From the IMG/VR virus record IMGVR_UViG_3300031841_002960, positions 1 to 30,171 of that record: 30,171 nucleotides of DNA; one strand, given 5' to 3'. Below, one piece after another: positions 9,637 through 24,725 of the stretch. This DNA comes from a virus. A program made the position numbers and the translations under genes. Every line of letters starts with the position of its first letter. The first letter of the stretch is position 1. The notes under the pieces are model-generated. The model was not told the origin of the DNA. It saw only the letters and a program-made list of their open reading frames with translations, and made no database searches.

Positions 9637-9653
9637 GGCGGCACTATGCCGCC
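9637..9653 (-). other. Hairpin with stop codon in the loop
   Basis: GGCGGCA-TAG-TGCCGCC, seven perfect pairs; the loop is the stop codon of the VWA gene. No T-run follows, so this is not an intrinsic terminator. Same design as the terminator at 8793-8811, perhaps a ribosome-sensed or RNase-blocking hairpin. Confidence 0.6.
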
Positions 9654-10795
9654 ACCGGTATGCGTGTTGTTTCGCCGAATGGTGCATCACCACACCGCTC
9701 GTCAGTTGAAACCCATAACACTGGGTAATCTGGATGATCGTCAGGCCAGTCGTGTATGCCCATGTCAGTCAGGTAAACCATGTTATCGACAGGCAAGCAC
9801 TCGTCTTCGATGTAATCAAAAACAGGCGTGACCCTAGTGCCGCCACGACCCTTGCACTCAATCTCTTCGATAACATCGCCATGTTCGTAGCGTGTCACAG
9901 ATTGGATTTTTGCGTCACAGGTGATGACAGTAATAGACTGCGGCTTGTGATCATCGCTGATGGCATTAAGCTCCCCAAGAAATTGGGAAAGCTCACGACT
10001 GCTGACAGATCCAGATGTATCAACAGCCACCACAATATCACCGACACCGATCTTGCTGACCGATGGCATGTAAAGATTGCGGTTAAACCAAGCGTTTCGC
10101 TGTGGACGACGCCATGTGTAATCATCCGGCTGATCGCCACCGATAAAGCGGTTCAGAACATCGCGCCAATCGACCTCAGAGCGACGCATACGGGCGACAA
10201 GCTCTGCAATGCTACCAGATAGCTTGCCGACTGATTTGGCGCCCTGAGCGGCCAGAAAAACGCGCTGGTCAATAGAAGCTGAATATTGCTCAACTTCACT
10301 GCCAGACATTGGCTTGCCATTATCATTGTTTGGCTGACCAACATTGCCGCCCCATGGCTGGGGTTGTGGGCGTTGTTCGGGTGCCATGTTTTTCAGCAGT
10401 CGGTAAACCTGAACCCATGCCATGCCTGAATACTGTGGTTCATACAGGCCGCCTTTCGGCAACGTCATGCCATCCTCAATAAGATATGCATTAATGACAT
10501 AATCCATTGCCATGTTTTGGATCTCAGGATTTATGTCTTCGCCATCGATGTGTGTGATAGGTACGCAGTGCTTCAGCATAATGTGACCGATCTCATGAGC
10601 GATCACGCCCTGCACCTCTGGCTCACTAATCCGATCAACAAAATCAGCGTTCCAATAAATGCGCTGACCATCAGTCGCCATAGTGTCGTGATCATCGCTT
10701 TGGACAAACGGGGTGCCAAGTGTCAGCGACCCCCAAAATGGCTTATCCAATACCAATCTAGTTTTAGCTCTAGCTAGCTTTGTTTGTGTATCCAT
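9644..10795 (-). CDS. Metallopeptidase-VWA domain protein
   Basis: 383 aa. The N-terminal half has a zinc peptidase motif HEIGH at 67-71 (GVIAHEIGHIMLKH). The C-terminal half is a von Willebrand A domain with MIDAS residues D259-x-S-G-S263, a glycine-threonine at 319-320 and D344 in YLTDMG. This is the architecture of DUF2201-type 'putative metallopeptidase plus VWA' proteins, which usually partner a MoxR AAA ATPase, encoded here two genes upstream. Such pairs are thought to act as chaperone or assembly machines; the phage target is unknown. AGAGG precedes the ATG. Confidence 0.85.
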   Translation of the reverse strand: MDTQTKLARAKTRLVLDKPFWGSLTLGTPFVQSDDHDTMATDGQRIYWNADFVDRISEPEVQGVIAHEIGHIMLKHCVPITHIDGEDINPEIQNMAMDYVINAYLIEDGMTLPKGGLYEPQYSGMAWVQVYRLLKNMAPEQRPQPQPWGGNVGQPNNDNGKPMSGSEVEQYSASIDQRVFLAAQGAKSVGKLSGSIAELVARMRRSEVDWRDVLNRFIGGDQPDDYTWRRPQRNAWFNRNLYMPSVSKIGVGDIVVAVDTSGSVSSRELSQFLGELNAISDDHKPQSITVITCDAKIQSVTRYEHGDVIEEIECKGRGGTRVTPVFDYIEDECLPVDNMVYLTDMGIHDWPDDHPDYPVLWVSTDERCGDAPFGETTRIPVAA

Positions 10796-10803
10796 ATCAT
10801 CCT

Positions 10804-11016
10804 CTAATGTCTGGCATGATCTTGATCGCTGAACTTGGGGTGCGGTGTAAGTGATGCGCCCCTGCCGATCAAAACAATGTCGTTGTCAAAATCGATATCG
10901 CCGTGTGAGCGGAAATCATTCATCTTGTGAATGAAATCGGGATGACCAAAAACGCGACATGCGGCGGCATGCCCGTCACCATCAAACCCGATAAAGTGAA
11001 CCAGTCTTTTGGTCAT
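10804..11016 (-). CDS. Hypothetical protein, 70 aa
   Basis: Small protein MTKRLVHFIGFDGDGHAAACRVFG... with Asp/His-rich turns; no family recognised. AGGAG lies upstream, and a GTAC palindrome and a GC hairpin precede it, so it may begin a new transcript. Its stop is about six bases from the VWA gene start, so both are probably co-transcribed. Confidence 0.65.
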   Translation of the reverse strand: MTKRLVHFIGFDGDGHAAACRVFGHPDFIHKMNDFRSHGDIDFDNDIVLIGRGASLTPHPKFSDQDHARH

Positions 11017-11030
11017 AACCCTCTCCTAAT

Positions 11031-11046
11031 TTGTACGATGGTACGA
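11031..11046. promoter_or_regulatory. GTAC palindrome, site 4
   Basis: TTGTAC-GATG-GTACGA, one mismatch between arms, 15 bases upstream of the ATG at 11016, between it and a GC hairpin. Confidence 0.6.
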
Positions 11047-11048
11047 AT

Positions 11049-11069
11049 GGGGCGACACCATGCCGCCCC
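11049..11069 (-). other. GC-rich intergenic hairpin
   Basis: GGGGCG pairs with CGCCCC (11069-11064 with 11054-11049 on the minus strand) around GCATGGTGT. It lies shortly after the AAA ATPase stop at 11078. Only a short AT stretch follows, so termination is uncertain. Belongs to the recurrent 'GCAC-x-ATGC' hairpin family. Confidence 0.5.
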
Positions 11070-11077
11070 ATTGTGCT

Positions 11078-12118
11078 TTAGTTGAGCATCAGTTCAGCAC
11101 CGCCATTCAGCATAAACTTGCGGAAAGCATCAGTTTGCTTAATGGATGGGGTGCGGTTGTATGCATCTTTGATTGCAAAAACCGAAAACTCTTTGTGCGG
11201 TAAACGCTCAAGATATTTGATGACGTTGCCAATGTTTTTGTCGTTGGCCTTGTATGCCAATGCGGCAGAGACCGCGTAGCACACCGCCGGATCTTCAGCG
11301 ATTGGTGCGCTATCAGGGTTGGCAATGACCGCATCAATATCCGGCACCGCATCATGAACGGCCTTGTATCCGAAAAACTCAGCACATGCACCACGGCCAA
11401 CCTGACCCGACACCGCCTCTTGTTTATTAACATCACTCAGATCCATTTTCATGATGCTATCAACACGTTCCCATGATCGCGGTGATGGGCATGAATTAGC
11501 GTCACGATCAAACTTGTGTAGCAACTCAGGCCGGAACCGTAAGAAGCCGGTCACAAGTGGTGACACATCATTTTCGTTCATGTAGCCGACTGTATCTTCC
11601 AGATCTGCATCGATCTCAAGAAACAGCAACCGATCTTTGACATGGCTTGGCATGTTATTTGTGCCAGCCCGATCAGATGTGCGATTACCAGCCGCAACCA
11701 AAACGACGTTGTCAGGCAGTTTAAATTCACCGCAACGGTGTTCATTAAACATCTGAGCAGACACGTTCATGTTCGACACGGGTGCCTGTGGCAACTCATC
11801 GATAAACAGGATGACGATTTCATTTTCGCCAGCCAGCTTTTCAAGTGCATTTAGCCAGTGTGGCTTCAGGCGGTGTGCAACACCATCGATCAGCGCGATC
11901 ACGCCCATCAGCTCTGCCGCATCATATTGCGCCAGCGACAGGATGTAATGCGCCCAGCCCTCATTGTTGTTGGCGGTATCGATGATGACAGTAGTTTTGC
12001 CAATGCCAGCACCGCCAATCAGGTACGGGATAAGGCGTTGTGCGTCGCGCCCCATCCGGTATTTGATTTGGTTTTTGATTGATTGAAAAACGATCTCTTT
12101 TGCTTGCGATATACGCAT
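11078..12118 (-). CDS. MoxR-like AAA ATPase
   Basis: 346 aa. Walker A GGAGIGKT at 35-42, Walker B ILFIDE at 103-108, sensor-1 asparagine in VAAGNR (N145), an arginine-rich segment (SHVKDRLLFLEI), and a lid-like helical C-terminus. MoxR-family AAA proteins work with VWA proteins, here the gene ending at 9644. The ATG at 12118 is preferred over the in-frame GTG at 12130 because that GTG is part of the GTGGAG ribosome site. Its 5' leader begins inside the hammerhead ribozyme at 12151-12210, so its mRNA is probably produced by self-cleavage. Confidence 0.85.
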   Translation of the reverse strand: MRISQAKEIVFQSIKNQIKYRMGRDAQRLIPYLIGGAGIGKTTVIIDTANNNEGWAHYILSLAQYDAAELMGVIALIDGVAHRLKPHWLNALEKLAGENEIVILFIDELPQAPVSNMNVSAQMFNEHRCGEFKLPDNVVLVAAGNRTSDRAGTNNMPSHVKDRLLFLEIDADLEDTVGYMNENDVSPLVTGFLRFRPELLHKFDRDANSCPSPRSWERVDSIMKMDLSDVNKQEAVSGQVGRGACAEFFGYKAVHDAVPDIDAVIANPDSAPIAEDPAVCYAVSAALAYKANDKNIGNVIKYLERLPHKEFSVFAIKDAYNRTPSIKQTDAFRKFMLNGGAELMLN

Positions 12119-12139: not shown

Positions 12140-12156
12140 GTGACCAAGGCAGTCAC
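12140..12156 (-). other. Alternative 5'-terminal hairpin after ribozyme 1
   Basis: GUGACU (12156-12151), loop GCCUU, GGUCAC (12145-12140). The first strand is also the 3' strand of hammerhead stem I, so the two folds exclude each other. After cleavage it would be the first structure of the AAA ATPase mRNA. Confidence 0.7.
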
Positions 12157-12210
12157 GACACCGCCTGAGCGGTGTTTCGCCAGTGCCTCACGCTGGCTCA
12201 TCAGGTGACT
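12151..12210 (-). ncRNA. Hammerhead ribozyme 1 (type I)
   Basis: Read on the minus strand: stem I 12210-12205 with 12156-12151 (six pairs); core CUGAUGA 12204-12198; stem II 12197-12193 with 12183-12179; GAAA 12178-12175; stem III 12175-12169 with 12164-12158 (seven pairs, loop UCAG); cleavage after C12157 in GUC. All invariant core bases are present. Loop II GAGGC (12189-12185) can pair with GCCUU (12150-12146) just past stem I. The upstream gene's UAG shares two bases with stem I. Cleavage would separate the gene ending at 12209 from the AAA ATPase gene. Confidence 0.94.
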
Positions 12211-12883
12211 AAAACTGATCAGTCATTGCATTGATCTGATCATTCTCTTTTGCGACACGGTCAGCCGTTGCCTTGGCCTCAGCCTCTGCCGCAATCCGCT
12301 CACGCAATTTGTCTTCCAACAAATCTTTGAATGATTGGATTTCATCCAGATCTAGGTTTTTGTCTTCGTCCAAAAAGCCGCCAAGGAACTTGTCCCCCTC
12401 AACTTTTTGTCCGGCCTCAACCTTCGTTGACCGCCGACCGACAATCCTTTCGACCATCTTTTGGACACGGGTCTTGGTATCATCACCGGCAACAGCCTTA
12501 ATCAGCTTCGCCTCGCTAGTGATACCAGCATCGTTAAAGATATCAGAGACCATTGACGGGGTGATGTTGTTACCATTGATGCCGAAAATAAATCTGGCAC
12601 CGGCGGTGTTTTTGACCATCTTGTTTGCCATGCCCTCAGACATGCTCACTTGCGGCATGTTGATGAGCTGGTTCTTGATATCCCGACCGGTCTTTGTTGG
12701 AAAATTATTCTTGTCGGTCAGGTTAATGTTTGCGGTTGCCGCGATCATCACGCAGTAGCTATTCAGCTTGAGCGTGTTGGCTTCGCCGGTGGCATCCTTA
12801 GCGGTGCCGCGCAGGGTTTGGATTTGAGCTTCGTTGTTGCCAATTTTTTCGATGTTGGCGGCATCAATGACGATTGTCTGCAT
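12209..12883 (-). CDS. Hypothetical protein, 224 aa
   Basis: Starts MQTIVIDAANIEKIGNNEAQIQTLRG and has a conserved-looking region (LNSYCVMIAATANINLTDKNNFPTKTGRDIKNQL). The C-terminus is a coiled coil (DKLRERIAAEAEAKATADRVAKENDQIN). The family is not recognised. The ATG at 12883 is chosen because the ATG at 12895 lies in the AATGGAG ribosome site. Bracketed by hammerhead ribozymes 2 (upstream) and 1 (overlapping its stop), so its mRNA could be released as a single gene. Its place directly before the MoxR ATPase suggests an adaptor or substrate role, as inference. Confidence 0.7.
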   Translation of the reverse strand: MQTIVIDAANIEKIGNNEAQIQTLRGTAKDATGEANTLKLNSYCVMIAATANINLTDKNNFPTKTGRDIKNQLINMPQVSMSEGMANKMVKNTAGARFIFGINGNNITPSMVSDIFNDAGITSEAKLIKAVAGDDTKTRVQKMVERIVGRRSTKVEAGQKVEGDKFLGGFLDEDKNLDLDEIQSFKDLLEDKLRERIAAEAEAKATADRVAKENDQINAMTDQF

Positions 12884-12908
12884 ATCTGTCTCCATTGTTA
12901 GCAGATTA

Positions 12909-12923
12909 GTAGCAGGACGCTAC
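12909..12923 (-). other. Alternative 5'-terminal hairpin after ribozyme 2
   Basis: GUAGC-GUCCU-GCUAC, five perfect pairs, starting at the base immediately after the predicted cleavage site. The first strand is also the 3' strand of hammerhead stem I. Confidence 0.7.
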
Positions 12924-12976
12924 GACCCAGCAGTGCTGGGTTTCGCCAGTGTCCTAAGCTGGCATCATCAGGTAGC
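12919..12976 (-). ncRNA. Hammerhead ribozyme 2 (type I)
   Basis: Minus strand: stem I 12976-12972 with 12923-12919; core CUGAUGA 12971-12965; an extra U at 12964; stem II 12963-12959 with 12949-12945; GAAA 12944-12941; stem III 12941-12935 with 12931-12925 (seven pairs, loop ACU); cleavage after C12924. Loop II AGGAC (12955-12951) is complementary to GUCCU (12918-12914). Stem I abuts the UAA stop of the gene ending at 12977. Stem III differs in sequence from ribozyme 1 but keeps pairing. Confidence 0.94.
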
Positions 12977-13210
12977 TTAACCAGTGGCAATAAAGTTGCC
13001 GCCTGATCTAATGTTGAATGGCAGTGTGATATCGAAACGCCGATATTGCTTGGCGCGAAAATCGTAAACGACCGCCAAGTGATCAGGCACGTTTGGATCG
13101 TTTTTGATCACGCCCCAGACGGGACGGGTTGTCCCATCTTTTTTGGTAAATGAACCAGTGAAGATCCTGCCGTACCAATTACGCAGGATTTGTTCTTTTT
13201 TCATATGCAT
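12977..13210 (-). CDS. Hypothetical protein, 77 aa
   Basis: Basic small protein: MHMKKEQILRNWYGRIFTGSFTKKDGTTRPVWGVIKN... KQYRRFDITLPFNIRSGGNFIATG. The second half resembles short phage beta-strand proteins of the 'WY-KDG-x-R-x-WGV' kind; no family is assigned. Several in-frame ATGs exist (13222, 13216, 13210, 13204); 13210 has GGAG at the best distance, while 13222 would overlap the previous stop as TAATG. No ribozyme separates it from the upstream gene. Ribozyme 2 begins one base after its stop. Confidence 0.65.
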   Translation of the reverse strand: MHMKKEQILRNWYGRIFTGSFTKKDGTTRPVWGVIKNDPNVPDHLAVVYDFRAKQYRRFDITLPFNIRSGGNFIATG

Positions 13211-13221
13211 AAGCATCTCCA

Positions 13222-13455
13222 TTATTTGCCAGTGTAAACTGACGGGTTGTTGTGTTTAAAACGTGACCGCTTGCCAGCCTCATCAGTGATGAGGAACTCG
13301 GCAGGGTCTAGTTTGAGGTATCGGCAAACTTGAATGAGGTGGTATTTCACATCATCCAGATTGCCTACGATAACAGCTTCGTCACGCTCAACTTTGTAGC
13401 GGCTGTTCGATAGCTTGGTGATATCTCTGACTGTGTTTGTGATTGTGTAACGCAT
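13222..13455 (-). CDS. Hypothetical protein, 77 aa
   Basis: Small basic protein MRYTITNTVRDITKLSNSRYKVERDEAVIVGNLDDVKYHLIQVCRYLKLDPAEF..., unrecognised. GGGAG lies seven bases upstream of the ATG at 13455. Its leader begins at hammerhead ribozyme 3. Adjacent to the next gene with no spacer, so the two form one cleaved unit between ribozymes 3 and 2. Confidence 0.65.
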   Translation of the reverse strand: MRYTITNTVRDITKLSNSRYKVERDEAVIVGNLDDVKYHLIQVCRYLKLDPAEFLITDEAGKRSRFKHNNPSVYTGK

Positions 13456-13475
13456 TTATCATCTCCCATTGTTGA

Positions 13476-13490
13476 ATAGCAGGACGCTAC
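13476..13490 (-). other. Alternative 5'-terminal hairpin after ribozyme 3
   Basis: GUAGC-GUCCU-GCUAU, five pairs with one G-U, beginning at the first base after the predicted cleavage site; mutually exclusive with stem I. Confidence 0.65.
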
Positions 13491-13544
13491 GACACCGCCG
13501 TAGCGGTGTTTCGCTGGTGTCCTACGCCAGCATCGTCAGGTAGC
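13486..13544 (-). ncRNA. Hammerhead ribozyme 3 (type I), overlapping a gene end
   Basis: Minus strand: stem I 13544-13540 with 13490-13486; core CUGACGA 13539-13533 (C at the variable position 7); an extra U at 13532; stem II 13531-13527 with 13517-13513; GAAA 13512-13509; stem III 13509-13503 with 13498-13492 (seven pairs, loop UACG); cleavage after C13491. Stem II (GCUGG/CCAGC) covaries with GCCAG/CUGGC in ribozymes 1 and 2. Loop II AGGAC (13523-13519) pairs with GUCCU (13485-13481). The last seven codons (SYLTMLA) and the UAG of the upstream gene encode stem I, the core and the stem II 5' strand. Confidence 0.94.
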
Positions 13545-13857
13545 TTTTCATTTCTTTAGAGCGGCGGTCAAAAAACTTGCCGCCTCGCACAATGCTAGGC
13601 TCATCATCCCAATGGCCTTCGCGGTAGTCGATCTGAGCGCGATTGTCGAGGTCATCAACAAACACCCTCATCACATCCAACCTGACCATTGTTGAAGGCT
13701 TGATGTTGTCGCCCAACAATTCTTCCAGAAAGGCGCGGTATGCTCCGCGCAATTCTGCTGGTTCAACATTACCAGCACACTCATGAAAATTTGAAATCTC
13801 ATTGTGGTTGTACTGTGATGACATATTGAATTTGAATTTGAATGGTATGGTTTGCAT
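13522..13857 (-). CDS. Hypothetical protein, 111 aa
   Basis: First gene of the ribozyme-bearing operon. Reads MQTIPFKFKFNMSSQYNHNEISNFHECAGNVEPAEL...YREGHWDDEPSIVRGGKFFDRRSKEMKSYLTMLA; no family recognised. Its Shine-Dalgarno AGGGG (13868-13864), six bases from the ATG, lies in stem III of hammerhead 4. Its C-terminal codons form the core of hammerhead 3. The gene is thus flanked and overlapped by ribozymes on both sides. Confidence 0.7.
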   Translation of the reverse strand: MQTIPFKFKFNMSSQYNHNEISNFHECAGNVEPAELRGAYRAFLEELLGDNIKPSTMVRLDVMRVFVDDLDNRAQIDYREGHWDDEPSIVRGGKFFDRRSKEMKSYLTMLA

Positions 13858-13861
13858 CGCA

Positions 13862-13918
13862 ATCCCCTGTTTCGTTGGTTACTCATCAGACATGGCTACC
13901 AGTGCCATGCGACAGGAT
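13862..13918 (-). ncRNA. Hammerhead ribozyme 4 (type III)
   Basis: Circularly permuted order on the minus strand: stem III 5' strand UCCUGU 13917-13912; cleavage after C13911; stem I 13910-13904 with 13896-13890 (seven pairs, one G-U, loop ACUGGUA); core CUGAUGA 13889-13883; short stem II 13882-13881 with 13875-13874; GAAA 13873-13870; stem III 3' strand 13870-13865. UGGU in loop I (13901-13898) is complementary to ACCA in loop II (13879-13876), the loop-loop contact typical of natural hammerheads. Stem III holds the ribosome-binding site of the gene at 13857. Stem II is only two pairs, so confidence is a little lower. Confidence 0.85.
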
Positions 13919-14427: not shown

Positions 14428-14473
14428 AATATTTGTGTGTGTACAAACAAAATATTTGTGTGTGTACAAACAA
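14428..14473. repeat. Perfect 23-bp tandem repeat
   Basis: Two identical adjacent 23-base units (14428-14450 and 14451-14473), each containing TTTGTGTGTGTACAAA, a degenerate version of the GTAC palindrome. A further TTTGTGTACAAA occurs near 14680. Likely a regulator or initiator-protein binding cluster. Confidence 0.75.
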
Positions 14474-14555: not shown

Positions 14556-14834
14556 GTGTATCATTATGACCAAAAAGACCTAAAACGCCTGTACGGGCTT
14601 CTATGGGCGATTAAACGGCATGAACAAAACAAGAACATCGCCATTTTGGGGGTTTTTAGGCACCTTCAGGAAAACTTGTTTGTGTACAAACAATTTAGGT
14701 CAATCTGGTGGGGTGTGCGGCAGACATGGTATGATCTGGACAGGCAAAAATCCCGACCAAGCGACAGCGCATATTGGCGGCACTCAATAGGGAATAGACA
14801 ATGGATAAAGACAAAGACAAGCCATCACATTTAA
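14556..14834 (+). CDS. Possible small protein, GTG start
   Basis: 92-codon frame with protein-like content (YGLLWAIKRHEQNKNIAILGVFRHLQENLFVYKQF) and GGAG six bases before the GTG. It overlaps the terminase small subunit start by 34 bases, which is unusual here. Family unknown. It could be spurious, so confidence is modest. Confidence 0.42.
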   Translation: MYHYDQKDLKRLYGLLWAIKRHEQNKNIAILGVFRHLQENLFVYKQFRSIWWGVRQTWYDLDRQKSRPSDSAYWRHSIGNRQWIKTKTSHHI

Positions 14835-24229: not shown

Positions 24230-24296
24230 GTATACTGTATAGGAACCTTGACAGTCGCATGGTGTGGCTGACATTAGCCTAGACAAGGAGTTCCTC

Positions 24297-24725
24297 ATGG
24301 CTACTACAACTTTCGCTGGTCCAATTAAGGCTGGCTCAATTCGTGAAGGCGCGTCAGCAAACGTAGGCTTTGTGCGTATGGCGCAAACAGCAGACTGGAC
24401 ACAGTCAACAACCGCCGCTGACACCGGAATCACAATTCCTGCCAATAGTCAGATTACTGAAATCCGCATCTACATCACAACGGCTACAACTGCCGCTAAC
24501 ATCAGCATGGGCTTTAGCTCAACAACTACAGAACTGTTTACTGGCCTAGCCGCTGGCACAGCCGCAAACGTAGTTAAGCTGGGGTCAGCAGGCACAATTG
24601 CCGACATTGATGATTGGGTAGATGTAGGCTCTTCTGATGTTCCTATCTTCATTGACTTCTCCGCTGGTACAGCGGGCGCTGGTTATGTGACTGTAGAATA
24701 CATTCAAAACATCAATAACGCCTAA
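24297..24725 (+). CDS. Virion structural protein, 142 aa
   Basis: MATTTFAGPIKAGSIREGASANVGFVRMAQTADWTQSTTAADTGITIPANSQITEIRIYITTATTAANISMGF...: Thr/Ala/Gly-rich beta protein with almost no Lys. Related proteins follow the capsid gene in many marine phages. The ATG at 24297 has AAGGAG at the right distance. May be a fibre or decoration protein; not proven. Confidence 0.72.
   Translation: MATTTFAGPIKAGSIREGASANVGFVRMAQTADWTQSTTAADTGITIPANSQITEIRIYITTATTAANISMGFSSTTTELFTGLAAGTAANVVKLGSAGTIADIDDWVDVGSSDVPIFIDFSAGTAGAGYVTVEYIQNINNA

Follow-up and report, generated by a model that had tools for sequence, protein, structure and literature searches.

The window analyzed here is a complete virus record of IMG/VR (IMGVR_UViG_3300031841_002960; 30,171 bases), though perhaps a genome fragment. 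An operon on its minus strand carries four elements that are, as judged by sequence, hammerhead ribozymes, three of type I at gene junctions and one of type III in the leader of the first gene. Past the predicted cut, all three type I copies have the same order of short strands, namely, the 3′ strand of stem I (S′), 5 to 7 nt complementary to loop II (PK, forming a pseudoknot), and a repeated copy of S (the 5′ strand of stem I), this copy being referred to below as the third strand. S′ can pair either with the upstream S, as stem I, or with the third strand, as a small hairpin. We consider it probable (about 60%) that these elements constitute a natural processing cassette similar to the RiboJ insulator, in which the hammerheads would cut a polycistronic phage transcript and strand exchange would then make a hairpin at the new 5′ end.

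Detection of four hammerheads in one operon

The initial annotation had placed four hammerhead cores on the minus strand. Direct reading of the sequence confirmed all four at those places (Table 1) as well as the cuts predicted after 12157, 12924, 13491, and 13911. Each element has the hammerhead core, CUGANGA ... GAAA ... UH, at a three-helix junction. The matches to a simple pattern (CTGANGA..GAAAC..GTCG) were the three type I copies, with 0.03 matches being expected. A three-stem structural scanner detected exactly three type I elements and one type III element in the window, while the same scanner found 0.006 type I and 0.0024 type III elements per window in 8,265 dinucleotide shuffles; the claim of two topologies was, therefore, upheld. 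A covariance model, R1, made from 32 sequences of relatives with the window left out, found all of the type I copies (Table 1).

The Rfam type I and type III models had been put forward as a check, and by this measure the elements failed, as none of the four reached the gathering score. Scans at the gathering score detected no hammerhead in the window or in 11 relatives, and a scan by E value over 3.6 kb missed the hammerheads, matches being obtained only from short stretches. In these short-stretch scans, RF00163 matched 12151-12210 with 18.9 bits (gathering cutoff, 34) and RF00008 matched 13864-13918 with 22.9 bits (E value, 0.0032; cutoff, 48.5), and there was no Rfam type I match for hammerheads A and B. 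The published active hammerhead of phage PaP3 likewise scored under the cutoff (21.3 versus 48.5 bits), indicating that the subthreshold scores reflect a limit of the Rfam models. The gathering score was treated as a convenience and not as a defining property of a hammerhead.

The ribozyme-bearing operon runs leftward in the order type III leader, 111-amino-acid (aa) gene, type I hammerhead A, 77-aa and 81-aa genes, type I hammerhead B, 228-aa gene, type I hammerhead C, and MoxR-type ATPase gene. The orientation and spacing of these genes suggest that they form one transcription unit. Clustering, taken as at least two hammerheads flanking phage genes within one predicted transcription unit, was evident. 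The ribozymes had been described as covering consecutive junctions, but this coverage has gaps, as there is no hammerhead at 13222, where the 77-aa and 81-aa genes overlap, or after the ATPase gene. Similarly, the description of the elements as intergenic or leader segments must be amended for the copy at 13544-13486, which overlaps the end of the upstream gene and has the stop codon of that gene in loop II.

Covariation of S′ with both copies of S

While the identity, topologies, and cuts of the ribozymes were correctly given, the initial annotation overlooked the third strand, the loop II pseudoknot, and the placement of stop codons and ribosome-binding sites. Its observation that pairing was kept despite changes in stem sequence was supported both by the R1 model and by counts of pairs. 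Within the window, switch C keeps every pairing even though its pseudoknot and each of its three strands have sequences other than those of switches A and B (Table 1). Type I copies in relatives (loci designated L) were collected with a first pattern in which the stem I letters were fixed and the third strand was free, with protein searches that constrained neither, and with a later pattern in which the pseudoknot partner was set along with a single base of the third strand. S′ paired with the third strand at all five positions in 40 of the 44 distinct type I copies, the exceptions being L035, one copy in L033, and both copies of L081. Seven S′ sequences were accompanied by a matching third strand (GTAGC, ATAGC, GCAGC, GTGGC, GTGAC, GCGGT, and, with four pairs, TGGGA).

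Pairing was then counted in 35 sequences. For the 22 pairs of stems I to III and the pseudoknot, 96.7% of cells were paired, as against 26 to 51% in a slid-alignment control, and both sides had changed at 18 of the 22. Stems I, II, and III were each 90 to 99% paired with both-side changes present, the closing pair A15.1-U16.1 being invariant in type I; compensatory changes were, hence, found in all three helices for type I, while the type III comparison comprised a handful of sequences examined by eye. The pseudoknot between loop II and the 3′ flank of stem I exhibited both-side changes at all five main pairs. For the alternative hairpin of S′ and the third strand, 99.4% of cells were paired with both-side changes at five of five positions, a level reached by 0 of 500 shuffles. 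One row (L033:3812) was misaligned in the alignment used (A3), slightly lowering these counts. A shuffle test with a forced 5′ hairpin missed some hairpins found by plain folding and was not relied on.

The same data bear on two other explanations of the third strand. The two copies of S amount to short direct repeats flanking the ribozyme, and the presence of a hammerhead at a given junction varies, as might be seen if the third strand were a by-product of DNA history, such as target duplication upon insertion of a mobile hammerhead. We regard this as very improbable, as S′, which is internal to the element, covaries with each copy of S and as the changes in stems II and III and in the pseudoknot are independent. 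Less credible still is the idea that the postcleavage hairpin is a transcription attenuator. A TTTTT run does follow the hairpin at 12156-12140, but such runs are not a conserved feature, there being at most 3 T in the following 8 nt in 35 of 44 copies, and the stem is only ∼5 bp.

Placement of stop codons, start codons, and Shine-Dalgarno sequences

Of 42 type I copies, 34 had the upstream stop codon, defined by the longest open upstream frame, within the interval from −9 to +1 relative to the core. These stops were mostly TAG or TAA touching stem I, and in six copies the stop was the UGA of CUGANGA itself. The next start codon was 35 to 47 nt from the cut and the Shine-Dalgarno sequence was 23 to 34 nt from it; the hammerhead is, thus, followed by a hairpin and then a ribosome-binding site, which is the order of RiboJ. 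Such placement of stops indicates that a type I cut would leave the upstream gene intact, with stems II and III at its 3′ end, and would provide a short leader for the next gene.

The type III leader is organized differently. The 3′ strand of stem III contains the likely Shine-Dalgarno sequence of the 111-aa gene (CAGGGGATT), and CAGGAG occupies the same position in four relatives. A type III element occurs at the same place in L009, L024, L048, and L107, and in these loci, as in the window, the Shine-Dalgarno sequence is formed by the stem III 3′ strand. Stem II has only 2 bp, and its loop, ACCA, is complementary to UGGU in loop I; a 4-nt loop complementarity is also present in the type III leaders of the relatives. 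The predicted downstream product of type III cleavage begins with the stem I hairpin, and this is likewise the case for the type III elements of L104 and L105. With the third strand, type I products would acquire a hairpin start of this kind as well.

TABLE 1 Ribozymes, associated elements, and genes of the ribozyme-bearing operon
Feature	Position	Strand	Remarks
Type III hammerhead, leader of gene 1	13862-13918	minus	cut between 13911 and 13910
Type I hammerhead A	13486-13544	minus	cut between 13491 and 13490; R1 model 89.1 bits (13476-13544; rough E value 1.1e-19)
Type I hammerhead B	12919-12976	minus	cut between 12924 and 12923; R1 model 83.3 bits (12909-12976; rough E value 2.8e-18)
Type I hammerhead C	12151-12210	minus	cut between 12157 and 12156; R1 model 60.1 bits (12140-12209; rough E value 1.1e-12)
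Putative post-cut switch A	13476-13490	minus	GTAGC (stem I 3′ strand), GTCCT (pairs with loop II TAGGAC, pseudoknot), GCTAT (third strand)
Putative post-cut switch B	12909-12923	minus	GTAGC, GTCCT, GCTAC
Putative post-cut switch C	12140-12156	minus	GTGAC, TGCCTTG, GTCAC
Stem III 3′ strand with likely Shine-Dalgarno sequence of the 111-aa gene, CAGGGGATT	13861-13869	minus	pairs with UCCUG 13917-13913 in the ribozyme
Gene 1, 111 aa, no family	13522-13857	minus	ATG at 13857; stop TAG (13524-13522) inside loop II of hammerhead A
Gene 2, 77 aa	13222-13455	minus	overlaps gene 3, no hammerhead between
Gene 3, 81 aa, weakly WYL_2-like	12977-13222	minus	stop TAA directly ahead of hammerhead B
Gene 4, 228 aa, no family	12209-12895	minus	G of stop TAG is first base of stem I of hammerhead C
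Gene 5, MoxR-family AAA ATPase	11078-12118	minus	phrog_1297, E value 3e-65; ATG at 12118, 38 nt past cut C

Distribution of the ribozymes among relatives

Searches with the ATPase protein yielded 80 loci, of which 25 had hammerheads in the same operon. Type I copies were located ∼0.1 kb and 0.8 to 1.1 kb ahead of the ATPase gene and type III copies ∼1.2 to 1.4 kb ahead of it. L104 and L105 each had three type III hammerheads in the operon, one of them directly before the ATPase gene where others have a type I copy, representing a swap of topology. This variable occupancy and these swaps indicate turnover of the ribozymes, by gain, loss, and exchange, within a constant gene order. In whole contigs of the relatives with the ATPase operon, the type I model found one or two sites only. 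No match to this model was obtained in the terminase relatives HTVC027P, HTVC023P, DSL-LC04, and 023Pt_psg01, in the ATPase relative CRP-7, or in rhizobial phages whose ATPase resembles that of L033.

Some copies were found in other settings. L033/L031 (IMGVR_UViG_3300006916_000359) is a different phage in which, at ∼17.1 to 21.2 kb of the contig, five type I hammerheads occupy gene junctions around a CobS-like AAA ATPase (phrog_249); their stems are very different, and the order of the three strands is the same. L081, a prophage unrelated to the family of the window, has Caulobacter phage S2B as a relative. A contig binned as an Akkermansiaceae metagenome-assembled genome (L057; DBBL01000025.1) has a type I hammerhead like those of the window (88.6 bits) and is probably a misbinned phage contig. 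A match in a Gemmatimonadota contig (L058) had a weak score, was probably due to chance, and was discarded.

Proposed mechanism and alternatives

In the proposed scheme, the hammerheads would cut one polycistronic phage transcript into separate mRNAs. Each type I junction would act as a cassette consisting of the upstream stop, the ribozyme, the cut, and a short leader ordered S′-PK-S. Before the cut, pairing of S′ with the upstream S and of PK with loop II would give the active fold. After the upstream piece leaves, S′ would re-pair with the downstream copy of S, and the new mRNA would begin with a 5′-hydroxyl on a small hairpin, followed by the Shine-Dalgarno sequence and the start codon at the spacing given above. 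Such an exchange would discourage religation and, hence, make release of the upstream piece hard to reverse. In the type III leader, the product would keep stem I as a 5′-terminal hairpin and the cut would free the Shine-Dalgarno sequence held in stem III, such that both types would generate mRNAs starting with a hairpin. Both 5′-terminal hairpins and 5′-hydroxyl ends slow decay in bacteria. The system most likely serves to divide polycistronic phage mRNA into pieces whose ends are defined and structured. The sequence itself establishes the folds, the covariation of the three strands, and the spacing of stops and starts; cutting and refolding would be expected in the cell, and protection or even expression of each mRNA may be the outcome.

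A more elaborate version of strand exchange, which we entertain only tentatively, is that S′ is shared by the catalytic fold and the alternative hairpin and that, through a stop codon located at the core or within it, the position of the ribosome determines which fold prevails, in which case termination of translation would time both cutting and capping by the hairpin.

Several observations weigh against the processing cassette. As the relatives are for the most part close kin and GTAGC and ATAGC dominate among the S′ sequences, the counts overstate how often the hairpin has changed independently. The power of the covariation comes mostly from the divergent S′ sequences (GTGAC, GCAGC, GTGGC, TGGGA, and GCGGT), and an S′ swapped between copies often still pairs, indicating that independent events are modest in number. 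Stem I and the alternative hairpin differed by no more than 1.5 kcal/mol in 40 of the 44 type I copies, but these energies derive from a nested model that leaves out the pseudoknot, cotranscriptional folding, and ribosomes. A full third strand is absent from the two type I hammerheads of L081 and from one of phage S2B, which indicates that cutting does not require it. Finally, there was no hammerhead in the DNA examined for 55 of the 80 ATPase-bearing relatives, some junctions in relatives consist of a short spacer without a ribozyme, and the most distant relatives have none, indicating that the system is dispensable.

The main rival to the processing cassette is that the third strand serves as an off-switch before the cut. 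A ribosome at the adjacent stop would cover the 5′ strand of stem I, S′ would pair downstream, and cutting would wait for upstream translation to pause or end. The stops do border the 5′ half of the ribozyme or fall in it, a placement within the normal footprint of a ribosome, and the two pairings of S′ are nearly equal in energy, as a switch would need. We nevertheless consider this explanation somewhat unlikely, as the pseudoknot (about −9 kcal/mol by a duplex estimate) would be predicted to favor the ribozyme fold whenever the 5′ strand is present and free, and as L081 and S2B have similarly placed stops yet no full third strand.

The repeated strands of stem I might also allow religation of the cut units into circular or spliced single-gene mRNAs. 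Hammerheads can ligate, and a unit running from A to B has ends, GTAGC and GCTAC, that are compatible. However, the stem of hammerhead C differs, such that units ending there would not match, and the third strand competes for the strand that ligation needs. Such products were sought by Perreault et al. (2011; PMC3088659), and none were found. This possibility was, therefore, judged highly unlikely and is ranked low together with the DNA-repeat and terminator explanations.

Comparison with known systems

The initial annotation had stated that no equivalent of this arrangement was described, a claim that is refuted by the prophage clusters of mixed type reported by Perreault et al. (2011; PMC3088659). 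Several type I, II, or III hammerheads occur in proximity there, flanking single prophage genes or short blocks; three tandem arrangements were tested in vitro, one of them also in Escherichia coli, and the clusters were active; a pseudoknot between stems I and II was described; and mRNA processing was proposed. These clusters, hence, resemble the window in mixed topology, flanking of genes, and the stem I-II pseudoknot. A text search of the main text detected no mention of Shine, ribosome binding, stop codon, or translation, and the passages on the pseudoknot and tandem arrangements refer to no strand exchanging with stem I, the figures and alignments being outside this comparison. A 2017 review regarded the role of prokaryotic hammerheads as an open question (PMC6155905). 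Phage hammerhead clusters are, thus, already known, while the cassette with a third strand looks new, a provisional view drawn mainly from papers available without subscription.

RiboJ is an engineered insulator combining a hammerhead with a downstream hairpin (PMC8794103; PMC7536230), which in E. coli doubled the transcript on average and raised protein 2- to 10-fold (PMC6206723). As in the phage cassette, the hairpin comes right after the hammerhead and is followed by the ribosome-binding site, with cutting standardizing the leader. RiboJ differs in having a type III plant-satellite ribozyme and a separate 23-nt hairpin, whereas the hairpin of the phage cassette shares a strand with stem I and has the pseudoknot partner as its loop.

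Phages PaP3 and S2B, both unrelated to the phage of the window, have a similar layout in which a type III hammerhead near the start of early genes, with a Shine-Dalgarno sequence or start codon inside, is followed by type I copies at junctions. The Shine-Dalgarno sequence lies in stem-loop II of the type III element in both phages, and stem III of the S2B element contains the start codon. The S2B hammerheads (L166; minus strand) are at 45014 (type III) and at 43129 and 42542 (type I), are unannotated in the record, and include the annotated stops of gp062c and gp060c as the UGA of the two type I cores. A third strand was not seen in PaP3; in S2B, it pairs over 5 bp at 43129 but over just 3 bp at 42542. 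Processing of T7-type early mRNAs by RNase III also cuts a phage polycistronic transcript between genes and leaves structured ends, but this is performed by a host protein enzyme and involves no self-cleavage.

Other features of the window

The ATPase gene is part of a minus-strand region (9644-12118) encoding the MoxR-type AAA ATPase and then a protein with DUF2201 metallopeptidase and VWA-like domains. A pair of this kind is typical of MoxR systems. The plus strand contains terminase, portal, and capsid genes. The closest cultured relatives are distant, the ATPase having 40% identity to the annotated MoxR ATPase of Roseobacter phage CRP-7 and the terminase having 58% identity to that of Pelagibacter phage HTVC027P; the window derives from a marine-type phage.

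A palindrome, TTTGTAC-N4-GTACAAA, was present nine times with up to two mismatches (1776, 5810, 6587, 8755, 11030, 14261, 15290, 15798, and 24173), as against 0.09 expected; it is exact in many relatives and is suggestive of a phage operator or promoter element present at dispersed sites. A match to the Mu-gpT-DE RNA (RF03012), by its name a family from Mu-like phages, was detected over the gathering score (63.3 bits) at 24246-24299 on the plus strand, downstream of the capsid gene. A 23-nt repeat, AATATTTGTGTGTGTACAAACAA, lies in noncoding DNA upstream of the ribozyme operon, with two tandem copies at 14428-14473 and a third, 87% alike, at 14671-14693.

Implications

The processing cassette predicts that changing the third strand alone would leave cutting intact and alter the fate of the cut mRNA. 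As S2B and PaP3 are cultured and have similarly arranged hammerheads, the processing idea is accessible in laboratory phages. Given its likeness to RiboJ, the cassette suggests that ribozyme insulators arose in phages independently.

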